Origin: an uncultured Eisenbergiella sp.
Lineage (GTDB): Bacteria; Bacillota; Clostridia; Lachnospirales; Lachnospiraceae
NCBI GenBank assembly: GCA_947627215.1
Contig: CANQVD010000038.1
Span: 1 to 37,352 of the forward strand
Direction: 5' to 3'
DNA: 37,352 nt
Every line of letters begins with the position of its first letter. Position 1 is the stretch's first letter. Below the pieces are notes generated by a model. The model did no database searches, had not been told where the DNA came from, and was given only the letters and a program-made list of their open reading frames with translations. Made by a program: the position numbers and the translations under genes. Shown one piece after another: positions 13,949-22,930 of the stretch.

Positions 13949-15016
13949 TCATTTCAGTTCGTCGGCCTTGACCTCAAACTCCGCTTTCGCCTTACGGAAG
14001 CAGTCCATCAGCTTCGGGTTGAACTGCCCGCATTCCCCGTTCAGAATCATCTGATACGCTTTCTCATAGGAGAACGGAGGCTTATATACCCGTTCGCTGG
14101 TGAGCGCGTCATAAACGTCCGCAATGGAAACCGCCTGCGCGCTGATGGGGATCTCGTCCCCCTTCAGATGGTTGGGATATCCCCTTCCGTCGAACTTCTC
14201 ATGATGGCTCAGCGCGATCTCAAGGCAATATTTCTTGAACACGGGATCGTCATTCATGATCACCCGCTCCACCACCTGCGCGCCCTGCACCGTATGGGTC
14301 TTCATCAGCTCGAATTCTTCGTCCGTCAGCTTTCCCGGTTTCATCAGGATGCTGTCCGGAATGGAAATCTTGCCCACATCATGCAGCACGGAAGCGGAGG
14401 CGATGATCTCCGCCGTCTCCAGATCCAGCCCGTATTCCGGATAATCCCGCAGAAGATGCTCCAGCAGGATCTCCGTAAAGGAACGCACCCGGAAAATGTG
14501 ATTCCCGGACTCCATGCTCCGGAACTCCACGATGGTGCCCAGCGAGTTGATGATATGCTCGTTCATCGCCGCCAGCTTGGCGTTCTTTTCCCGGATCTCG
14601 CTGGTCTGCGCCTCCACCAGCTTTTCCAGATTATTCTTATGATAATACAGCTCGACCAGATTGCGTACACGCCTGGTCACGATATCCGGCTCAAAGGGCT
14701 TGGTGATGAAATCGGAAGCTCCCAGCTCATAGCCGCGCCGTTTGGACTCATAGGACGTGTCGCTGGTGATCAGGAGCACGGGGATCTTCTTCATGAGGCC
14801 GTGCTCATTCAGAAATTCCAGCACGCCGAAGCCGTCCAGCCTTGGCATCACGATATCCAGAAGGATCGCAGAAATGTTCCGCTCCTTCTTCCCGATGAGT
14901 TCGATCGCTTCCCTTCCGTCCTCCGCCAGAAGGACATCATACTCCTCTTCAAAAATCGTATGCAGAATCTCTCTGTTGATCTCCATATCATCCACTACGA
15001 GGATGTTATGCTTCAT
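13949..15016 (-). CDS. Response regulator with HD-GYP output domain (probable c-di-GMP phosphodiesterase)
   Basis: 355 residues. The N-terminal receiver domain (1-120) has the acidic pair D9-D10, phospho-acceptor Asp54 in LLDIVMPRLDG and Lys106 in FITKPFEP. After a coiled linker (about 125-160) comes an HD-GYP domain: LHDVGK (211-216), KTHTVQGAQVV, HHEKFDGRGYP (271-281) and SIADVYDALTSERVYK. The metal-binding HD pair and the GYP motif are intact, so hydrolysis of c-di-GMP or a related dinucleotide is expected; the actual substrate is inferred. The neighbouring HPt protein at 15097-15453 could feed phosphate to Asp54. No histidine kinase is adjacent, so the signal enters from elsewhere. Confidence 0.93.
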   Translation of the reverse strand: MKHNILVVDDMEINREILHTIFEEEYDVLLAEDGREAIELIGKKERNISAILLDIVMPRLDGFGVLEFLNEHGLMKKIPVLLITSDTSYESKRRGYELGASDFITKPFEPDIVTRRVRNLVELYYHKNNLEKLVEAQTSEIREKNAKLAAMNEHIINSLGTIVEFRSMESGNHIFRVRSFTEILLEHLLRDYPEYGLDLETAEIIASASVLHDVGKISIPDSILMKPGKLTDEEFELMKTHTVQGAQVVERVIMNDDPVFKKYCLEIALSHHEKFDGRGYPNHLKGDEIPISAQAVSIADVYDALTSERVYKPPFSYEKAYQMILNGECGQFNPKLMDCFRKAKAEFEVKADELK

Positions 15017-15096
15017 AATTGATCTCGTCTCTCTTTCTGGCTATGCTGTAGGAAAGTCGGGCCCTTCTCCCGCGGCCCTTCAATATTATGATAAAA

Positions 15097-15453
15097 TCAT
15101 AAGGCAGAAACGGCCTGCAGGATCCGCTCGTATACCGTCCGCAGCGCGGCGAGATCCTCCGCGGCGCCGGTCATATCATGGGCGCGGAATCTCTCCGTCA
15201 TTTCCGAGGTCCGGTCGAACAGCTCCGTCATGCCCAGATTCCCCGCAACCCCCTTCAGGGTATGGGCCGCGCGAAACGCTTCCTCACTGTCTCCGGCCGC
15301 TACAGCCTTCTCCAACTGGGAAAACGTCATATCATCCGCAAACCGCTTCATGAACTTTTCAGTCAGCCGCTCACTGCCCATAAAACGCTGCATGACCGAA
15401 TCCACATCGATCCCCGCCGCCGTCAGTGCCGCCTTATTATCCGCAATACTCAT
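15097..15453 (-). CDS. Stand-alone histidine phosphotransfer (HPt) domain protein
   Basis: 118 residues, all alpha, with the HPt signature AFRAAHTLKGVAGNLGM; the phospho-accepting histidine is His64. Before it come typical HPt helices with MQRFMGSERLTEKFMKRF and FSQLEKAVAAGD. It should shuttle phosphate between a hybrid histidine kinase and receiver domains. The gene is first in the block, about 80 bases before the HD-GYP regulator, and has a near-consensus promoter just upstream. The partner kinase is not in the window. A role toward the regulator next door is inferred from position only. Confidence 0.9.
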   Translation of the reverse strand: MSIADNKAALTAAGIDVDSVMQRFMGSERLTEKFMKRFADDMTFSQLEKAVAAGDSEEAFRAAHTLKGVAGNLGMTELFDRTSEMTERFRAHDMTGAAEDLAALRTVYERILQAVSAL

Positions 15454-15728: not shown

Positions 15729-16658
15729 ATGAGAAACCACCTGCGTCTTTTTTCCATATTATTCCTTTCCGTCCTGCTCTGCGGGTGTTCTCTTTTCGCC
15801 ACCACGCCGATCCGGGAGCCGGAGCCCGGCAGCGGAACCAGGGGCAGCACCCGGCAGGTGCTCCGGCCCGAACCGGGAAATACGCTGAATTTCGGCAACG
15901 CCCAGGTTTCGCTGGACGCCTCCCACAGCGACCAGGGCTATGTCATGGTGAAATGGCGGGGCGCGCAGAACAAGCTCAAGCTGCGGATCTCCGGCCCCAA
16001 AAACAATACCTATACCTACAATCTGGAAGCGGACGGCGAATGGCATGTTTTCCCCCTGACGGAGGGCAGCGGCAATTATACGTTCAACGTCTTTGAAAAC
16101 GTCTATGACGACCAGTATTCCCAGGCCTTCGGACACGCGCTCACCGTCCTGCTCTCCGACGACCGGCTTCCTTATCTCTATCCCAACGAATATGTGGACT
16201 TCGATCTGACCACCAGGGCGGTTTCCCTCGCGGAGGAGCTTTCCCTGAACGCCGACTCGGATCTGGACGTGATCACCAGCGTCTTTTATTATGTGGTGAC
16301 TCATCTGGAATACGATCACGAGAAGGCGGCCAGCGTGCAGAGCGGCTATAAGCCCGTGATCGACCGGACGCTGGAGGAGGGAAAAGGGATCTGCTTCGAC
16401 TATGCGGCTCTGATGACCTGCATGCTGCGCTCTCAGCAGATTCCCACCCGGCTCGATATCGGATATTACGGCGATGTTTATCACGCCTGGATCTCCACCT
16501 GGCTGGAGGACGAGGGCTGGATGTACAATATCATCGAGTTCAACGGCTCCTCGTGGAACATGATGGACCCCACCTTCACCTCCACGGCCAGCAGGGGCAG
16601 CGATCTCTCCCAGTTTATCGGCAACGACAGCAGCTATTTCATCAAGTTTTCCTACTGA
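15729..16658 (+). CDS. Transglutaminase-like (cysteine protease fold) lipoprotein
   Basis: 309 residues. The signal peptide ends in LLCGC, a lipobox-like motif with Cys20 as likely lipid anchor, so the mature protein should sit on the outer face of the membrane. After a beta-rich region (about 45-145) a transglutaminase-like core follows: GKGICFDYAALMTCMLRS with Cys222, DVYHAWI with His252 and NMMDPTF with Asp280, a complete Cys-His-Asp triad. Members of this fold cross-link, cut or deamidate proteins; the substrate is unknown. The ATG at 15729 (AAAGGG upstream) directly precedes the signal peptide; a longer frame from 15639 runs through the repeat-bearing leader and is rejected. First gene of the pilus-like operon, so it may modify surface or pilus proteins (inference). 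Confidence 0.88.
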   Translation: MRNHLRLFSILFLSVLLCGCSLFATTPIREPEPGSGTRGSTRQVLRPEPGNTLNFGNAQVSLDASHSDQGYVMVKWRGAQNKLKLRISGPKNNTYTYNLEADGEWHVFPLTEGSGNYTFNVFENVYDDQYSQAFGHALTVLLSDDRLPYLYPNEYVDFDLTTRAVSLAEELSLNADSDLDVITSVFYYVVTHLEYDHEKAASVQSGYKPVIDRTLEEGKGICFDYAALMTCMLRSQQIPTRLDIGYYGDVYHAWISTWLEDEGWMYNIIEFNGSSWNMMDPTFTSTASRGSDLSQFIGNDSSYFIKFSY

Positions 16659-16667
16659 TAAAAAGAC

Positions 16668-16701
16668 GCGGCGCAGGCATTCAGACAGATGCGGCGCAGG
16701 C
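16668..16701. repeat. Short duplicated motif in the spacer before the PilC gene
   Basis: GCGGCGCAGGC occurs at 16668-16678 and again at 16691-16701, a period of 23 bases, in the gap between the lipoprotein and PilC genes. Confidence 0.55.
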
Positions 16702-16745
16702 GCAGCGGACGCGATACCAGCATTCAAGAAAGAAAGGAATCTGCC

Positions 16746-17795
16746 ATGCCAACTCAATCCAAACCCTTTTCCAACCTGGAAGTATCGGCTTTCTGTTCTC
16801 AGATGTCCCTGATCCTGAAATCCGGGATATCCACCACGGAGGGCGTGGCCATTCTGAGCGAAGACGCGGCTCCGGAAAGAAAGGAATTTTACACCTCGCT
16901 CCACGCCTCCCTGGAGGAAGGGGAAACGCTGGGAGAAGCGTTGCGGCGTACCGGCGCCTTTCCGGACTACGCCTGCGACATGATCGAGATCGGCGTCCAG
17001 TCCGGCCGTACGGATGAGGTGATGGACGCGCTGACCGTCCATTATGAACGGGAGGAGGAGATCGCTTCCTCCATCCGCAGCGCCGTCACCTATCCCGCCG
17101 TCATGATCGGCATGATGTTCGCCGTTGTCATCGTCCTGATCACGCGGGTGCTTCCGATCTTCAACCAGGTATTTCTGCAGCTTGGCAGCCAGCTCACGGG
17201 CTTTTCCAGAGGGCTTATGAATCTGGGCAGCGTCATCAGCCGTTATTCCGTCGTGTTCGTGATCCTGCTCCTGCTGCTGGCCGCGTTTCTCCTCTGGCTG
17301 TGCAAAACTGCAGGCGGACGCCGCCTCAGACAAAAGCTCATGTCCCTCATCCCGCCCATCCGGCGCCTGCAGCGGCAGCTCTCCACGGGGCGCTTCGCCG
17401 ACGGCCTTTCCATCGCCCTTTCCAGCGGCCTTTCCATTGAGGACGGTCTGCAGATTGCGGGGCGGCTCGCCGCGGATCCCGACACCCGCGCGAAGGTGGA
17501 GGCCTGCGCTAAAGCCTACCGGGAAGGAGCCTCCTTTTCGGAGGCGGTCATTTCCTCCCATATTTTCTCCGGGCTGTACGCCAGAATGCTGTCCGTCGGA
17601 TTCCAGGCGGGGGCCACGGAAAGCGTGCTGCGCAAGATCGCAGACCGCAGCGCTCAGGACAGTGACGAGCACATTTCCCGCATGATCTCCATTCTGGAGC
17701 CCACGCTGGTCGCCATCCTCTCCTGTGTGGTGGGCCTGATCCTGCTGTCCGTCATGCTGCCGCTCCTCGGCATCATGAGCGGCATCGGCATGTAG
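16746..17795 (+). CDS. Type II secretion / type IV pilus inner-membrane platform protein (PilC/GspF family)
   Basis: 349 residues with two GspF repeats. The first runs about 11-140 (FCSQMSLILKSGISTTEGVAIL, TLGEALRRTGAFP, MIEIGVQSGRTDEVM) and the second about 210-340 (FADGLSIALSSGLSIEDGLQIAG, SFSEAVISSHIFSGLYARMLSVGFQAGATESVL). Membrane spans lie at about 113-133, 168-187 and 320-345. In known systems this protein is the platform that couples ATPase rotation to pilin insertion or removal. The ATG at 16746 has an AAAGGA site; an upstream in-frame extension from 16689 is leader. Its partner here would be the PilT-type ATPase at 19642-20694, with the small membrane proteins between them as candidate pilins. 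Confidence 0.92.
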   Translation: MPTQSKPFSNLEVSAFCSQMSLILKSGISTTEGVAILSEDAAPERKEFYTSLHASLEEGETLGEALRRTGAFPDYACDMIEIGVQSGRTDEVMDALTVHYEREEEIASSIRSAVTYPAVMIGMMFAVVIVLITRVLPIFNQVFLQLGSQLTGFSRGLMNLGSVISRYSVVFVILLLLLAAFLLWLCKTAGGRRLRQKLMSLIPPIRRLQRQLSTGRFADGLSIALSSGLSIEDGLQIAGRLAADPDTRAKVEACAKAYREGASFSEAVISSHIFSGLYARMLSVGFQAGATESVLRKIADRSAQDSDEHISRMISILEPTLVAILSCVVGLILLSVMLPLLGIMSGIGM

Positions 17796-17835
17796 GCAGC
17801 CGCCCTTCGCCCGAACATCTCAGAAGGAGAATCCG

Positions 17836-18153
17836 ATGAAACGCAAATTTTCCGGCGCAAAGCCTTTTCTCTCCATCGCCATCCTGCTGGCTTTCCTGTT
17901 TCTCTTCATCGGCGGCCTGAACTCCGTTTCCGGCCGTTCCGACGCGGAACAGCTTCGGAGCCTGGAGGAGGCCGTGCGCAGAAATATCGTGCACTGCTAT
18001 ACCATCAACGGTTTTTATCCGGAAAGTCTGGATTACCTGATGGAGCACTATCCCATCCTGTATGACGACACCCGGTATGTCATCCACTATCAGCCCGTGG
18101 CCTCCAACCTGATGCCGGACGTCACGGTCATGGAAAGGAAACAGCAGAAATGA
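17836..18153 (+). CDS. Small single-span protein, pseudopilin-like
   Basis: 105 residues: a short basic N-terminus, one hydrophobic span (about 10-27) and an extracellular part. The stretch RSLEEAVRRNIVHCYTINGFYPESLDYLMEHY resembles the region of major pseudopilins that reads roughly 'helix, Y-x-x-x-G-x-YP-x-x-L-x-x-L'. No canonical prepilin cleavage motif (G followed by F-T-L-I-E) is present, so processing as a true pilin is uncertain. AGAAGGAG lies before the ATG at 17836. It overlaps the next gene by 4 bases (ATGA). I do not recognise a named family. Confidence 0.8.
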   Translation: MKRKFSGAKPFLSIAILLAFLFLFIGGLNSVSGRSDAEQLRSLEEAVRRNIVHCYTINGFYPESLDYLMEHYPILYDDTRYVIHYQPVASNLMPDVTVMERKQQK

Positions 18154-18638
18154 GGCACTCTTACAGCAACCGCCAGCATACGGTGGATTCCCTGTTCACC
18201 CTGTCGCTGCTGGGCGTGTTCGCCATCTCCGCCCTGCTCGTCACCGTGTTCGGCGCCAACACCTATGAAAAGATCGTTTCCCTCTCCCGCCGGACATATG
18301 AAACCTCCACAACGCTCTCCTATATCCGGGAGAAGATCCGGCAGAACGACACGGCGGGCGGCGTCTCCATCACGGAGATCGAGGATACCGACGTGCTCAC
18401 GCTCAGAAGCGCCGTCAACGGCAAAAGCTACATTACCTGTATTTATTATCAGGACGGCATGCTCCGGGAGCTGTACCGGCAGGAGGAATATGACATTCCC
18501 CTCTCCGCCGGCCAGGGCATCCTGGAGGTCCACGGCCTGTCCATGGAGCAGCTATCCGATACCCTCTATCGTTTTACGGCAATGGACGAGGACGGTGAGG
18601 AAGCTCAGATCACCGTCGCCGTCAACAGCGCCGGTTAA
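18150..18638 (+). CDS. DUF4860-type single-span protein
   Basis: 162 residues, one N-terminal hydrophobic span (about 13-33) and a beta-rich exterior domain (YITCIYYQDGMLRELYRQEEYDIPL). It resembles the DUF4860 family of clostridia, which I know from gene clusters of this kind; this assignment is from memory of sequence style, not a search. The topology resembles ComGF/GspJ-like minor pilins, but no prepilin motif is evident. Translation is probably coupled to the previous gene by the ATGA overlap. Confidence 0.8.
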   Translation: MRHSYSNRQHTVDSLFTLSLLGVFAISALLVTVFGANTYEKIVSLSRRTYETSTTLSYIREKIRQNDTAGGVSITEIEDTDVLTLRSAVNGKSYITCIYYQDGMLRELYRQEEYDIPLSAGQGILEVHGLSMEQLSDTLYRFTAMDEDGEEAQITVAVNSAG

Positions 18639-18650
18639 GCAGGAGGCATT

Positions 18651-19022
18651 ATGAGACGTCATTCCAAAACCAGCCTGTTCCTGATGGAGCTCATTCTGTC
18701 CATTCTCCTGTTCTCCCTTTGCAGCGCGATCTGCGTACAGCTCTTCGTCCGCTCCCACCGGGAGGAACAGAAGGCGGTGTTTTTAAATCAGGCTGTCCGG
18801 ACCTGCGACAGTGTCGCCGCCCATATCCAGCAGGAGAAGGCGCTTCCGTCCCCGGTTTACTACGACGAGGATTTTCATCCCTGCGCACAGGAGGAGGCCG
18901 CATGGCTGCTGGAGACCAGGGATGTCACTCCCGCCGGCGCCTCCGTCAGACAGGCCTATATCACGATCCGCGATCTGAAGTACCCCGGTCCCCTGGCCTA
19001 TACGCTGATCGTCGGCTACTGA
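18651..19022 (+). CDS. Small minor-pilin-like membrane protein
   Basis: 123 residues. The N-terminus has a basic stretch followed by SLFLMELILSILLFSLCSAI, in which a lone Glu sits at the fifth position of the hydrophobic segment, as in type IV pilins (F-T-L-I-E). The residue before the presumed cleavage point is Ser rather than Gly, so cleavage by a prepilin peptidase is uncertain. The soluble part is short (about 85 residues). AGGAGG precedes the ATG by 4-5 bases. Of the four small proteins in the operon this one looks most pilin-like. Confidence 0.8.
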   Translation: MRRHSKTSLFLMELILSILLFSLCSAICVQLFVRSHREEQKAVFLNQAVRTCDSVAAHIQQEKALPSPVYYDEDFHPCAQEEAAWLLETRDVTPAGASVRQAYITIRDLKYPGPLAYTLIVGY

Positions 19023-19080
19023 TGCGGTTCCCGCGGAAAGCGGTTTTCGTTCTCCGCCAACGCTTTGAAACGAGGTTTCC

Positions 19081-19548
19081 ATGAAAAACAAAAAGCAGTC
19101 GCTCATCAATACGGGGCTTCCGTCTCTTCTGGTCATTTTCATCGTGCTCTGTCTGGTGACCTTCGCCGTGCTCTCCTATGTCAGCGCGCTGCGGGACCGC
19201 AGAGACGCGATGCAGTCCTCGGACCGCCTGCAGTCCTGGTACGCCGCCGACATGTCCGCCCGGAACAGGCTGGCAGAGATCAACGAAACGCTCCTGCGCG
19301 TTTCCGAACAGCTCTCCGCGCCCGAACCGGAGGCCTTTCTGGCGGAATGCCGCAAAAGCTTTCCGGATATGGACGCAGACGGCGTGCTCTCCTTCCGGAC
19401 GGATTTCGGCGATTCCCAGGCGCTCTCGGTCGAGCTGGAGGCCGTTCTTCCCGCCCCCGGAGAGGATATCTGCTACCGGCTCCGACGGTGGCAGGTCGTC
19501 ACCACGGCGGACTGGAACGCCGACGATACGCTGCCCGTCCTGCAATGA
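19081..19548 (+). CDS. Single-span exported protein of unknown family
   Basis: 155 residues: basic start MKNKKQSLINTGLPSL, one hydrophobic span (about 13-33), then a helical stretch (AADMSARNRLAEINETLLRVSEQL) and a small domain. No prepilin motif and no family that I recognise. Its place between the minor-pilin-like gene and the PilT-type ATPase gene suggests a part in the same envelope machine. The ribosome site is weak (ACGAGG). Confidence 0.75.
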   Translation: MKNKKQSLINTGLPSLLVIFIVLCLVTFAVLSYVSALRDRRDAMQSSDRLQSWYAADMSARNRLAEINETLLRVSEQLSAPEPEAFLAECRKSFPDMDADGVLSFRTDFGDSQALSVELEAVLPAPGEDICYRLRRWQVVTTADWNADDTLPVLQ

Positions 19549-19568
19549 CCGTTTCGAGAACCGCAGAA

Positions 19569-19630
19569 GCCTTCCGGCACCCCGGGAAAAGCCTTCCCGC
19601 ATCACGGAACGCTTTCCGGCATCACCAATA
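19569..19630. repeat. Three imperfect 20-22 bp tandem repeats before the PilT-type gene
   Basis: Units at 19569-19590, 19591-19610 and 19611-19630, each beginning GC(C/T)TTCC(G/C)GCA(C/T). They fill the spacer between two operon genes and end just before the AAGGAG ribosome site of the ATPase gene. Confidence 0.6.
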
Positions 19631-19641
19631 AGGAGAAAACA

Positions 19642-20694
19642 ATGGACCTGATTCAGTTGCTCACAGAGGCGGTATCCGACCATGCCTCCGACATCTTCAT
19701 CGTAGCGGGCCGTCCCTTTTCCTATAAAAAGAGTGGCGTTCTCATCGAGCATTCCCAGCGGCTCATGCCGGACGATACCAACGCGCTCGTCAACACCGTC
19801 TACGAGCTGGCCGGCGGCCGTGACATGAAGCACTTCCTGAAGCACGGCGACGATGACTTTTCCTTCGCCCTGCGCGGGCTGGCCCGGTTCCGTGTCAGCA
19901 CCTACCGGCAGCGCGGTTCCGCCGCGGCCGTGATCCGCGTCATCAACTTTTCCCTTCCGGATCATACACAGCTTGGCATCCCGGACAGCATCCTGCAGCT
20001 CGGCGAGCTCTCCAAGGGAATGGTTCTGGTGACGGGTCCCGCCGGCAGCGGGAAATCCACAACGCTGGCCTGCATCATCGACTATATCAATCAGCACAAA
20101 AAATATCATATCATCACCCTGGAGGATCCGCTGGAATTCCTGCATTCCCACAAGAACAGCATCGTCAGCCAGCGGGAGATTTCGGCCGACACGGACAGCT
20201 ATATCGCCGCCCTGCGCGCCTCTCTGCGCCAGAGTCCGGACGTGATCCTGCTCGGGGAAATGCGGGACTATGAAACGATCAACGTGGCCATGACCGCCGC
20301 GGAAACCGGCCATCTGATCTTTTCCAGCCTGCATACGCTGGGCGCCGCCAAGACCATCGACCGCATCATCGACGTGTTCCCGGCCAATCAGCAGCATCAG
20401 ATCGCTCTGCAGCTCTCCCTGACGCTGCAGGCCGTCGTCTCCCAGCAGTTAGTTCCCACCACGGACGGCGGACGCGTCCCGGCCTTTGAAATCATGGTGC
20501 TCACGCCGGCCATCCGCAATATGATCCGGGAAGGGAAAATCCCGCAGATCGAGGGTCTTTTGGCAAACGCCTCCTCTCCCGGCATGCGCTCCATGGATCA
20601 GAGCCTGATCGATCTGGTCCGCGCCGGAAGGATCTCCCGGGAAACCGCCCTGAGCCTGGCCTCCAATCAGGAGGCGATGAAACGCAGACTGTAA
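19642..20694 (+). CDS. PilT-type (type IV pilus retraction class) ATPase
   Basis: 350-residue secretion ATPase. An N-terminal PAS-like part with SDHASDIFIVAGRPF (12-26) is followed by Walker A GPAGSGKST (132-140), the Asp box ITLEDPLEFLH (158-168), Walker B VILLGEMRD (201-209) and the His box TGHLIFSSLHT (222-232). AIRNMIREGK near 290-299 corresponds to the AIRNLIRE motif that marks PilT and separates it from PilB/GspE. The protein lacks the long N-terminal domain and zinc-binding cysteines of extension ATPases. It is therefore called as a retraction-type motor even though no PilB-like partner is in this operon. AAGGAG lies before the ATG. Confidence 0.93.
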   Translation: MDLIQLLTEAVSDHASDIFIVAGRPFSYKKSGVLIEHSQRLMPDDTNALVNTVYELAGGRDMKHFLKHGDDDFSFALRGLARFRVSTYRQRGSAAAVIRVINFSLPDHTQLGIPDSILQLGELSKGMVLVTGPAGSGKSTTLACIIDYINQHKKYHIITLEDPLEFLHSHKNSIVSQREISADTDSYIAALRASLRQSPDVILLGEMRDYETINVAMTAAETGHLIFSSLHTLGAAKTIDRIIDVFPANQQHQIALQLSLTLQAVVSQQLVPTTDGGRVPAFEIMVLTPAIRNMIREGKIPQIEGLLANASSPGMRSMDQSLIDLVRAGRISRETALSLASNQEAMKRRL

Positions 20695-20696
20695 TG

Positions 20697-20727
20697 CCGG
20701 ACGGCAGAAGACCCGGACGGCAGAAAC
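20697..20727. repeat. Duplicated 15-bp motif between the PilT-type and CotH genes
   Basis: CCGGACGGCAGAA(G/A)(A/C) occurs at 20697-20711 and at 20713-20727. No terminator is visible in the 94-bp gap, so co-transcription with the CotH gene is likely. Confidence 0.6.
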
Positions 20728-20788
20728 GGCGGGAGATCCATACGGACCGTCCGCCGCAAAAATACATAGGAAAGGATCCCTGCAGAAA

Positions 20789-22930
20789 ATGAACAGTTCC
20801 AACATCATCGGGAAAAGAAACCGTCGAACAACAGCCGGCACACCCCTTCGGCCATCCGCCCCGCGGGGAACGGCTCTGTGCCATGCGGCAGCGCTGGCCG
20901 CAGCGCTTCTCCTGGCCGGATGGATGATGCCCGGCGCATTTTATGTACAGGCCGCAGGACCCGCCGCCGAATCGCAGCAGGAACAGACCGCGGCGCCTGC
21001 GATCGCCGGGAAAATCGATACCCCGCAGCCCGACCCGGAGAGCGGCATCATGCTGATCGCCGCGCCGGAGGGCGCTCCGACCGCCGCCCTTCCGGAGGAT
21101 GGTCCGGACACCGCCGTCCCGGACGCCGAACAGGAGGCCGCCCTGAAAGCGGCGCAGGAGGCAGCACAGGAAGCTTTTCGGGCCGCACAGGCGGCGGAGG
21201 CGAAAGCGCAGGAGGAGGCGTTTGCCAGACGTTTTCGCTGTTCCGTGACCGATCCCAACGGCGGGATCACCTTCGGCTACCGCGCGCCTCAGGACGGCGT
21301 GGTCTATCTGTTCCTGCCGCGTTCCGTGGACCTTGCCTCCATGGAGCTTTTATGCGCGGGCGATATCCAAAGCGTATCCCGCGGTTCCTGGGATCCCGCC
21401 ACGGGGATCCTGACCGGCGCGTTTGACAAAAGCGGCGATACGGCCGTGATCCGTCTGGACGGGATGGACGTCCAGGTCAAAGCGCTCCAGTCCGATCTGC
21501 CCAGCGTACAGCTCTACCTGAACAACACCACGCTGGATACCGTGCAGTTGGATAAAAACGTCAAATATCCCGACAACACCCTGTACCTGACCGGCGCGGA
21601 CGGCACGACCCTGATCTCCGCGCAAAACACCGTGGAATTTAAGGGCCGCGGCAATACCTCATGGCAGAAATATGACAAAAAAGGCTATCAGATCAAATTT
21701 GCGGAAAAAACCGCCGTCCTGGACATGGACGCGGCCAGGAAATGGGTCCTGCTGGCCAATGCCTCCGACGACAGCATGCTGCGCAACATGACCGCCATGC
21801 ACCTTTCCAGGGAGCTGGAAATGGCCTACACCACCGATTATCAGTATGTGGACTTCTGGATCGACGGCGTCTACCAGGGCACCTATATCATCGGAGAAAA
21901 GGTGGAAATCGGCGGCAAACGGCTGGATCTTTCGGATGAAAACGGCGTCCTGATGGAACAGGATTCCAGCTTTTACGCGGAAGAAGACTACTGGATCTAT
22001 GACGCGCTCCTGGATACCCAGTTTTCCCTGAAGGAATCCGTGGAGGAAGACGACGAGGCCAGGATCCGGTACGCCATCGCCTCTTTCCAGCAGGCGCTGG
22101 ACAAATTTCTGCTCTATCTGTATCAGACGCCCGCGGACGAGGTGACTCTGGAAACGCTTTCCTCCATGATCGATGTGGATTCCTTCGCGAAATACTATCT
22201 GATCTCCGAATATCTGCTGAACCGGGAGGCCAATCACTCCAGCTTCTACTGGTATAAGGACGGGGAAGCGGATGTCCTCCATCTGGGACCGATCTGGGAT
22301 TATGATACCTGCATGGGAAATGAAGATCTGGGCGCGAACGCCTATTATGCCACGATGCACAACACGATGATGAACCGGCTTCTGGCCTGCCCTGCCTTCC
22401 ATGCACGGGTGACCGCCCTGAAGGATCAGTACGCTGCCGCCTTCAGCGGTCTGACGGCCTACGTGAAAAAAACCGCGAAGGAGATCTCCTCCTCCGTTTT
22501 CATGAACTATATCCGCTGGAATACGCTGGGCGGCGTCAACCCCAAGGGCTACAGCGACTTCTCCGGCACCTACAGCGAATCCCTGGACCGTCTGACCGCC
22601 TGGCTCTCCGCCCGCCGCAGCGCGTTCCGGGTGCAAAGGCCCGCGCTCACCGCTTCTCCCGACGGCACCGGCACGATCATGACCGTGACAACGCCCCGCA
22701 CCGACGCCAATCTGCGGCTCGCGTTCTGGAGCGTGGAAAACGGACAGGATGACCTGCAATGGTATCTGCCGACCGCCGCCGAAAAGGACCGGACCGTCTT
22801 CGCCTTCGATCTGACGCCCTATCTGAGCAAAGGGCTGTACCACGTACATCTGTATGACGTGACGGAGGGGCCGGACGGCACGAATACCTACAGCCTGATC
22901 GACGGAACCTCCTGGTACCGTCTCCCCTGA
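20789..22930 (+). CDS. Secreted CotH-family protein kinase
   Basis: 713 residues. A long basic N-terminus and hydrophobic signal segment (about 30-50) ending near FYVQAAG point to export. Next come a low-complexity stretch, an Ala/Glu-rich helix (about 113-147), a beta domain (150-250) and the CotH kinase domain (about 280-600). Family marks are TVEFKGRGNTSW (281-292), GYQIKF, RKWVLLANASDDSMLRN (317-333), VDFWIDGVYQGTYIIGEKVEI (354-374), GVLMEQD, LLNREANHSSFYWYKDG (476-492) and LGPIWDYDTCMGN (499-511). A C-terminal beta region follows. CotH of Bacillus subtilis phosphorylates spore-coat proteins. A CotH homologue at the end of a pilus-like operon suggests a surface or pilus substrate, which is inference. 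A terminator follows directly. Confidence 0.92.
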   Translation: MNSSNIIGKRNRRTTAGTPLRPSAPRGTALCHAAALAAALLLAGWMMPGAFYVQAAGPAAESQQEQTAAPAIAGKIDTPQPDPESGIMLIAAPEGAPTAALPEDGPDTAVPDAEQEAALKAAQEAAQEAFRAAQAAEAKAQEEAFARRFRCSVTDPNGGITFGYRAPQDGVVYLFLPRSVDLASMELLCAGDIQSVSRGSWDPATGILTGAFDKSGDTAVIRLDGMDVQVKALQSDLPSVQLYLNNTTLDTVQLDKNVKYPDNTLYLTGADGTTLISAQNTVEFKGRGNTSWQKYDKKGYQIKFAEKTAVLDMDAARKWVLLANASDDSMLRNMTAMHLSRELEMAYTTDYQYVDFWIDGVYQGTYIIGEKVEIGGKRLDLSDENGVLMEQDSSFYAEEDYWIYDALLDTQFSLKESVEEDDEARIRYAIASFQQALDKFLLYLYQTPADEVTLETLSSMIDVDSFAKYYLISEYLLNREANHSSFYWYKDGEADVLHLGPIWDYDTCMGNEDLGANAYYATMHNTMMNRLLACPAFHARVTALKDQYAAAFSGLTAYVKKTAKEISSSVFMNYIRWNTLGGVNPKGYSDFSGTYSESLDRLTAWLSARRSAFRVQRPALTASPDGTGTIMTVTTPRTDANLRLAFWSVENGQDDLQWYLPTAAEKDRTVFAFDLTPYLSKGLYHVHLYDVTEGPDGTNTYSLIDGTSWYRLP

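Follow-up and report, generated by a model that had tools for sequence, protein, structure and literature searches.

A seven-gene pilus-like set with a PilT-class ATPase and a transglutaminase-like lipoprotein in Lachnospiraceae

The window analysed here is a stretch of 37,352 nucleotides from an uncultured Eisenbergiella sp. of the family Lachnospiraceae (contig CANQVD010000038.1, here C38, of assembly GCA_947627215.1), whose genome measures 4.04 Mb and is 97% complete. Between positions 15729 and 20694, it carries on the forward strand a seven-gene unit encoding a transglutaminase-like lipoprotein (TG), a PilC-type platform protein, four small membrane proteins (sp1 to sp4) and a PilT-class ATPase. 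The proteins of the window were scanned with Pfam and NCBIfam, and the features of the locus, including an adjacent CotH-family gene, are compiled in Table 1.

Table 1. Genes of the seven-gene unit and the adjoining CotH-family gene in the window.
Feature	Positions	Strand	Support
TG, transglutaminase-like lipoprotein, 309 amino acids	15729..16658	+	Pfam Transglut_core 1.6e-18
PilC/GspF-type platform protein, ~349 amino acids	16746..17795	+	Pfam T2SSF 3.5e-41
sp1, pilin-like, without cleavage site, signature CYxxxGxYPxSL	17836..18153	+	no Pfam/NCBIfam family
sp2 (DUF4860), predicted GspJ-type minor-pilin fold, without cleavage site	18150..18638	+	Pfam DUF4860 1.1e-31
sp3, GspI-like pilin-type protein	18651..19022	+	no family above cut-off; Glu at +5 invariant, Gly at −1 not kept
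sp4, GspK/PilX-like single-span protein	19081..19548	+	no family above cut-off; near-invariant Gly12, no Glu at +5
PilT-class ATPase	19642..20694	+	PilT_fam TIGR01420 423 bits (cut-off 319.1)
CotH-family protein with GBS_Bsp-like stretch	20789..22930	+	Pfam CotH 1.2e-32; starts 94 bases past PilT

The start of TG was set at 15729, downstream of AAGAAAGGG; the protein has a lipobox-like LLCGC and a catalytic-type Cys222-His252-Asp280 triad (252, 282 and 310 in the numbering of the 339-amino acid open reading frame). The PilC open reading frame opens at 16689, and an inner ATG at 16746, placed from the translation, agrees with the median PilC length of 350.5 amino acids. The ATPase bears the AIRNMIREGK motif that a previous reading of the window from its letters only (the sequence-only reading) had taken as a retraction-class mark, and it remained below cut-off against both the GspE model TIGR02533 (134.9 bits; cut-off 630.25) and the ComGA model NF041000 (132.4 bits; cut-off 300). 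Among the eight proteins of Table 1, the Pfam and NCBIfam scans gave no PilB above cut-off and no match to PilD, PilM-O or a secretin.

Of 200 Lachnospiraceae genomes, each of a different genus, 69 carried DUF4860, the Pfam family of sp2. We compared 61 loci, namely the window and 60 stretches fetched from the 68 other carriers; the carriers left unfetched (G006, G009, G039, G075, G081, G092, G101 and G167) were mostly low-scoring, and the 60 fetched lean to high scores. All 61 loci had sp1, sp2 and sp4, with PilC in 60, sp3 in 55, TG in 54, PilT in 52 and CotH in one. The six loci without an sp3 match have a gap of 385–601 bases at the sp3 position, and the PilT match of L097 is a distant, long-branched other ATPase, which leaves an operon PilT in 51 of the 61 loci. 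The order TG-PilC-sp1-sp2-sp3-sp4-PilT was the commonest (38 of 61 loci, in other genera too), and TG adjoins PilC in most loci. The best 80 of at least 584 loci obtained with an sp1 query, titled mostly Lachnospiraceae, Butyrivibrio, Roseburia or Acetatifactor, gave a similar inventory: PilC and sp1 in 80, sp2 in 79, TG in 78, sp3 and sp4 in 76 each, PilT in 9 and CotH in none. In those of the 80 that extend over at least 12 kb (n = 47), PilT was again found in 9 and CotH in none. The low PilT count is explained, at least in part, by the query itself, 7 of its 14 rows being loci without operon PilT.

The catalytic Cys, His and Asp of TG were invariant (54/54); its lipobox Cys column was kept in 47 of 54 sequences, and 35 of 54 fitted a simple lipobox pattern. 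Likewise, the Walker A Lys, Walker B Glu and His-box His of PilT were retained in all 67 rows labelled as operon, among which L097 is still counted, having been dropped as an operon PilT after tree construction. The retraction-class motif was looser, with AIRNxIRE in 30 of 70 PilT rows and a relaxed form in 57 of 70. TG and PilT are parts of the set, given their co-occurrence and active-site conservation; as far as can be judged from sequence, the gene set, its order and the active-site residues of both ATPase and enzyme have been maintained. The sequence-only reading had proposed a compact operon in which PilC and a PilT-type ATPase flank four small membrane proteins, with a surface Cys-His-Asp enzyme at its start and a CotH kinase at its end. 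The operon and its first gene were borne out, in an order that recurs in other genera far from chance, and so was the expected conservation of the transglutaminase with the cluster (54 of 61 loci). The CotH gene is adjacent and not conserved, and was rejected as an operon member (one of 61 family loci, none of the best 80 of at least 584): it is a passenger. A second CotH is encoded in the same genome at C2:49152. No additional flanking gene was common to most loci when 548 flanking open reading frames were clustered, the largest cluster being mixed and covering 22 of the 61.

The four small proteins were examined for prepilin features. As previously noted from the letters, one has a pilin-like Glu at position 5 of its hydrophobic segment and none has a canonical cleavage site: the residue is Glu13 of sp3, preceded by Ser where Gly is expected, and sp1, sp2 and sp4 of the window have no G↓xxxxE site. 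With a simple pattern devised for the present analysis, the G/A↓xxxxE site was absent from sp1 in 61 of 61 loci and from sp2 in 61 of 61. Glu was found at +5 of sp3 in 55/55 sequences, with G or A at −1 in 14/55, and sp4 kept its Gly12 column in 60/61 and had no Glu at +5. The alignments (A1–A4) hold 57, 57, 49 and 57 of the 61, 61, 55 and 61 sequences, the others were removed manually, in most cases because their starts were long or odd; the sp4 sequence without Gly is among the excluded ones, yet is counted in the 60/61.

Structure modelling covered sp1 and sp2. Both models matched type IV pilins; that of sp2 belongs with the minor pilins of the GspJ type and aligns with XcpW/EpsJ/GspJ. Foldseek E-values were above 0.01 for both and unrelated folds came second for sp2, so that the fold assignment relies on the VIA ranking; on these models, sp1 and sp2 are predicted to be type IV pilin folds. 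Pfam scans of sp1, sp3 and sp4 members returned no convincing family, PilX_N matching 2 of 57 sp4 members (best E 0.026). A profile search against solved structures gave sub-significant hints, with TcpA as top match for sp1 (E 0.97) and named pilins in five of eight rows for sp3 (E 0.64–2.1), where a designed protein held the top row (0.14); in the same search, no pilin was matched by sp2 or sp4. On the reading favoured below, sp1 would be a pilin or H-type subunit, sp3 an I-type and sp4 a K-type subunit.

The distribution of the extension motor was assessed with PF00437, a PilB being called at E ≤ 1e-75. PilB was found in 92 of the 200 family genomes, and its presence was not associated with the set: 32 carriers of DUF4860 had PilB and 37 had none, compared to 60 and 71 non-carriers (Fisher p = 1.0). 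Carriers at least 98% complete comprised 14 with PilB and 20 without. At a lower threshold, no PilB-like ATPase was found in the 37 PilB-negative carriers, where the best match, CpaF-like, reached 211.9 bits against 384–473 bits for the PilB matches called above; the search, which in most genomes scored part of the first-look candidates (the 37 best), yielded CpaF-like and PilT-type ATPases together with weaker, more distant matches. ATPases of about 300 amino acids in G138, G155 and G057 were judged by eye, from sequence and neighbours, to be of the CpaF/Tad type. A PilT-type match was present in 36 of the 37 PilB-negative carriers: in 30 it adjoins DUF4860, in G006 it lies on another contig (its class there being based on score and length only) and in five it is away from DUF4860; none was found in G137, which is 81% complete.

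A search for PF06750 and PF01478 covered the 37 carriers without PilB and 7 of the 32 with it. A24_N, the N-terminal domain of PilD, was found in 0/37 of the former and in 7/7 of the latter, used as controls. Outside the family, 8 of 21 carriers had no PilB-like match and 8 no A24_N; six fully searched genomes among these 21 (G543, G478, G363, G441, G346 and G316) and a seventh that is 89% complete (G266) had neither. In three of them, G346 (one contig, 100% complete), G441 and G543, the operon PilT was the sole T2SSE-family match at E ≤ 1e-8, and A24_N was again missing. The stretch fetched from G316 (L234) has no TG. On the evidence of these searches, the set is independent of PilB and PilD.

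Relatives outside the family were informative with regard to ancestry. Of 391 genomes of the class, 42 have DUF4860 (40 above cut-off). In 15 of the 20 stretches fetched outside the family, PilC and PilT were accompanied by three or all four of the small proteins. In three stretches from related Clostridia (L232, L233 and L235), PilB lies within the locus and a PilD domain is present in the genome. The order is PilB-PilT-PilC-pilin-sp1-sp2 in L232 and L233, and TG-PilB-PilT-PilC-pilin-sp1-sp2-PilM-...-sp3-like-sp4-like in L235, whose sp1-, sp3- and sp4-like matches are weak (20–27 bits). Canonical G↓FTLIE-type sites were present in sp1 and sp2 of all three and in the sp3-like protein of L235; five proteins scanned from L232 and L235 matched N_methyl, sp2 matching DUF4860 as well (below cut-off in L235), and sp1 of L232 and L233 bears a QCYAxEGRYPP signature. 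In six loci from five further families (L220, L226, L227, L229, L230 and L231), no PilB was found in the fetched stretch, and the same site was lost in sp1 and kept in sp3 (6/6) and sp2 (5/6). One genome, G574, has three copies of the set (L218, L219 and L220), the third of which keeps cleavage sites in sp2 and sp3.

In line with this distribution, a PilC tree, built by a quick method and unrooted, separated operon from canonical copies (support 98), with 71 derived rows forming a clade (99) and the six partly processed loci falling between canonical and derived copies; 8 of 9 loci without operon PilT formed one clade. The PilT tree placed 51 of the 52 copies from the family in a single clade (100/98) together with 14 of the 15 others, and the f10, f77 and third f84 copies branch basally in this clade; L230 grouped with PilB loci, and canonical PilTs were overall scattered over several groups. 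Solitary PilTs (L236–L243), taken from genomes whose operon lost pilT and with no pilus genes found nearby, grouped with seven canonical PilTs in 7 of 8 cases, as if the lost operon pilT had been replaced; five of the eight come from PilB-negative genomes. The relatives form a graded series, from PilB loci with intact cleavage sites to the present form, which has none in sp1 and sp2, and descent of the set from pilus loci is well supported.

Based on these results, the reading that we favour, with moderate confidence, is that a pilus base has been turned into a stand-alone, non-extending membrane machine worked by PilT and equipped with a surface enzyme. Its architecture and ancestry are well supported; the absence of processing and of a fibre, the action of PilT on the PilC platform and the coupling to the enzyme are what we infer, and with them the function. 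In type IV filaments, prepilin processing is needed before assembly, Glu5 pairs with the N-terminal amine of the neighbouring subunit, and conserved H-I-J-K-type minor pilins form a tip complex that seeds assembly and is capped by a Glu5-less subunit (PMC10191384; this and the following sources are cited from excerpts). Further, MSHA (mannose-sensitive haemagglutinin) pili are reported to have a PilT-dependent initiation step, possibly via minor pilins (PMC9815625), and a GspF platform has been reported as an ion channel required for assembly (PMC10790770).

In the machine proposed, the PilC platform would carry sp1 to sp4 in an arrangement like that of the initiation complex at the tip of type IV filaments. 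None of the four proteins would be processed, so that their basic N-termini would lie in the cytoplasm and their heads outside. A PilT-class hexamer would drive the platform in the retraction sense, ATP use shifting or re-arranging the external heads while no fibre is grown, and TG, outside the membrane, would be the likeliest partner or output, or else a wall-directed partner. The combination of tip-type subunits with nothing but a platform and PilT, sp1 and sp2 being siteless, suggests an initiation-type complex that never grows and that PilT pulls on or re-arranges. Retention of the +5 acid by sp2 and sp3 would point to persisting in-membrane docking contacts, and a fibre is doubtful given the loss of the processing site from sp1 and sp2. 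A more specific version is put forward only tentatively, since we would sooner expect it to fail than to hold: a permanently seated, unprocessed H-I-J-K-type complex on which the sole motor, PilT, pulls to drive or gate the TG-like enzyme, that is, an ATP-driven transmembrane actuator. If true, a pilus-made actuator would be common in Lachnospiraceae and their relatives, with its evolutionary steps still visible in living genomes.

Some observations qualify this picture. An A24 domain without A24_N occurs in 36 of the 37 PilB-negative carriers, so that the peptidase class is not wholly absent; for 60 of the 77 A24 matches in these genomes, the contig also carries a CpaF-like ATPase. G316 (1.8 Mb, 100% complete) has PilC and sp1 to sp4 with no T2SSE-family match, which speaks against an essential motor. 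Against a K-type sp4, the best weak NCBIfam match of the window protein was GspM (E 0.0069, below cut-off).

The alternative that survives best, although we regard it as unlikely, is that a filament or short pseudopilus is still built, with PilT (or ion flow through PilC) assembling sp1, in DNA uptake or protein export. The predicted pilin fold of sp1 and the persisting A24 peptidases would fit, as would the bidirectional action of CpaF, the single motor of Tad pili, the aid given by PilT to MSHA initiation (PMC9815625), and the reported channel activity of a GspF platform (PMC10790770). This is countered by the absence of a cleavage site from sp1 and sp2 in every one of the 61 loci, by processing being described as a prerequisite of assembly (PMC10191384), and by the 37 of 69 carriers without PilB.

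It is less probable still that the set is an accessory module, supplying alternative minor pilins, a platform and a retraction motor to an ordinary type IV pilus encoded elsewhere. On its contig C22, the genome of the window does encode what looks like a canonical type IV pilus, with Pfam matches for PilB, PilT, PilC, PilM, PilD and two prepilins and, by eye, two single-span proteins of about 210 amino acids at the PilN and PilO places. The absence of PilB, prepilin peptidase, PilM-O and secretin stated in the sequence-only reading is accordingly correct for the eight proteins of Table 1 and does not extend to the genome, where PilB, PilD and PilM are encoded on C22. A homologue of the C22 PilM was absent from the 61 loci, in which no PilN/PilO-specific profile search was made. 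That reading had also envisaged, as evidence against itself, a standard pilus locus elsewhere using these genes as accessories; the locus exists, and the accessory role fails because 37 of 69 carriers have neither PilB nor a PilD-type peptidase, which refutes it for the PilB-negative carriers. PilB in 32 of the 69 carriers would be compatible with such a role, and the lack of association between set and PilB speaks against it. In a canonical set of 20 hand-picked PilB loci (17 from carriers and 3 from non-carriers; PilT found in 14 of the 20 stretches), sp3-like matches, weak at 18–30 bits, were seen in 4 of 20 stretches, whereas sp1, sp2 and TG were found in none. The C22 locus also contains an open reading frame of 2823 amino acids (L008:10814-19285, minus strand) with a prepilin-type start, SGFTLPEALITV, a GLUG motif and an N_methyl match just under cut-off; it has the appearance of a giant, modular pilin or adhesin.

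Very improbable is that Tad pili of the same genomes lend CpaF and a peptidase to the set. On contig C17, matches to a CpaF-like ATPase and to an A24 peptidase mark a probable Tad-type locus, and nearly all PilB-negative family carriers have CpaF-like ATPases and A24 peptidases; against this, G346, G441 and G543 have no T2SSE-family match besides the operon PilT, and the set owns a PilC and a PilT of the type IVa kind. A short A24 peptidase without A24_N on contig C37 (L017:6617-7231, minus strand) is adjoined, by eye, by a dehydrogenase-like gene and no pilus genes. A decaying, functionless pilus remnant would account for the loss of PilB, PilD and cleavage sites, and is scarcely credible given the active-site residues kept in PilT (67/67 rows) and TG (54/54) and the gene order kept across genera and families. 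Equally hard to credit is that the transglutaminase cross-links a fibre or cargo which CotH phosphorylates, an idea that fits TG beside PilC in most loci and the CotH gene close behind PilT in the window, and that founders on the rarity of CotH (1/61 loci, none of the best 80 of at least 584) and on the doubtful fibre.

With regard to the surroundings of the set, a response regulator with an HD domain and an Hpt protein (Pfam) are encoded at 13949-15453 on the minus strand, divergent from the seven-gene operon. Subsets of the loci repeatedly have ECF-sigma-like, anti-sigma-like, GGDEF-like or SARP-like genes next to the set (named by eye, without a chance control). Rfam gave nothing at gathering level in the window that would point to riboswitch control and, in the fetched family loci, just tRNAs, a cobalamin riboswitch and a T-box (14 of 60 loci); Sigma-70 and terminator scans were close to shuffle level.

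The open-licence literature yielded no paper naming DUF4860 and nothing on the set under type IV pili with PilT and Lachnospiraceae, transglutaminase with Clostridi, PilB loss or Butyrivibrio PilC; papers that mention both transglutaminase and type IV pili, on R. albus and C. difficile, were, from their excerpts, unrelated. The view of a minimal, poorly described pilus-like envelope machine therefore stands with respect to the literature searched. The core of type IV filaments has been presented as a platform together with class III-signal pilins, their prepilin peptidase and an extension ATPase (PMC10191384). A survey of the superfamily treats assembly ATPase and peptidase as ancestral parts and describes MSH loci without a peptidase of their own, in genomes that have one elsewhere; no system without both was seen in the excerpts of that survey (PMC6668835). 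The set keeps the platform and the predicted pilin folds and drops the other core features, yet occurs in 69 of 200 sampled family genera. Since it descends from type IV filaments and fails three of their defining features, we count it as a variant of the type IV filament kind. It isolates two questions, the role of PilT without PilB and that of a conserved +5 acid in a pilin without processing site, both approachable in G346, G441 and G543 without interference from a second type IV filament.

Among known systems, the base of the type IVa pilus (PilC, PilT and PilHIJK) is similar in its platform, PilT-class ATPase and four pilin-like proteins, in the predicted J-type fold of sp2, and in that the PilC and PilT of the set branch from the type IVa group. 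In contrast with that pilus, the set has no PilB, PilD, PilM, separate class III-signal major pilin or sp1/sp2 cleavage site, and adds a transglutaminase-like lipoprotein. The pseudopilus of the type II secretion system (GspG-K, GspE and GspF) shares a short pseudopilin set, sp2 aligning with XcpW/EpsJ/GspJ; the proteins of the set differ in the loss of processing sites and in having no GspE-type extension ATPase or secretin. The ComG competence pilus of monoderms is likewise encoded in a compact operon with a platform and small pilins. ComGA is, however, an extension ATPase and ComC a prepilin peptidase, whereas the set has PilT and no such peptidase. For Vibrio cholerae, PilT is reported to act in initiation of the MSHA pilus, possibly on minor pilins (PMC9815625), but extension there needs MshE and the window set has no extension motor. 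The PilB-bearing pilus loci L232, L233 and L235 share homologues of sp1 and sp2 and, in L235, also TG and weakly sp3 and sp4, but keep an adjoining PilB, a genomic PilD domain and canonical G↓FTLIE-type sites.

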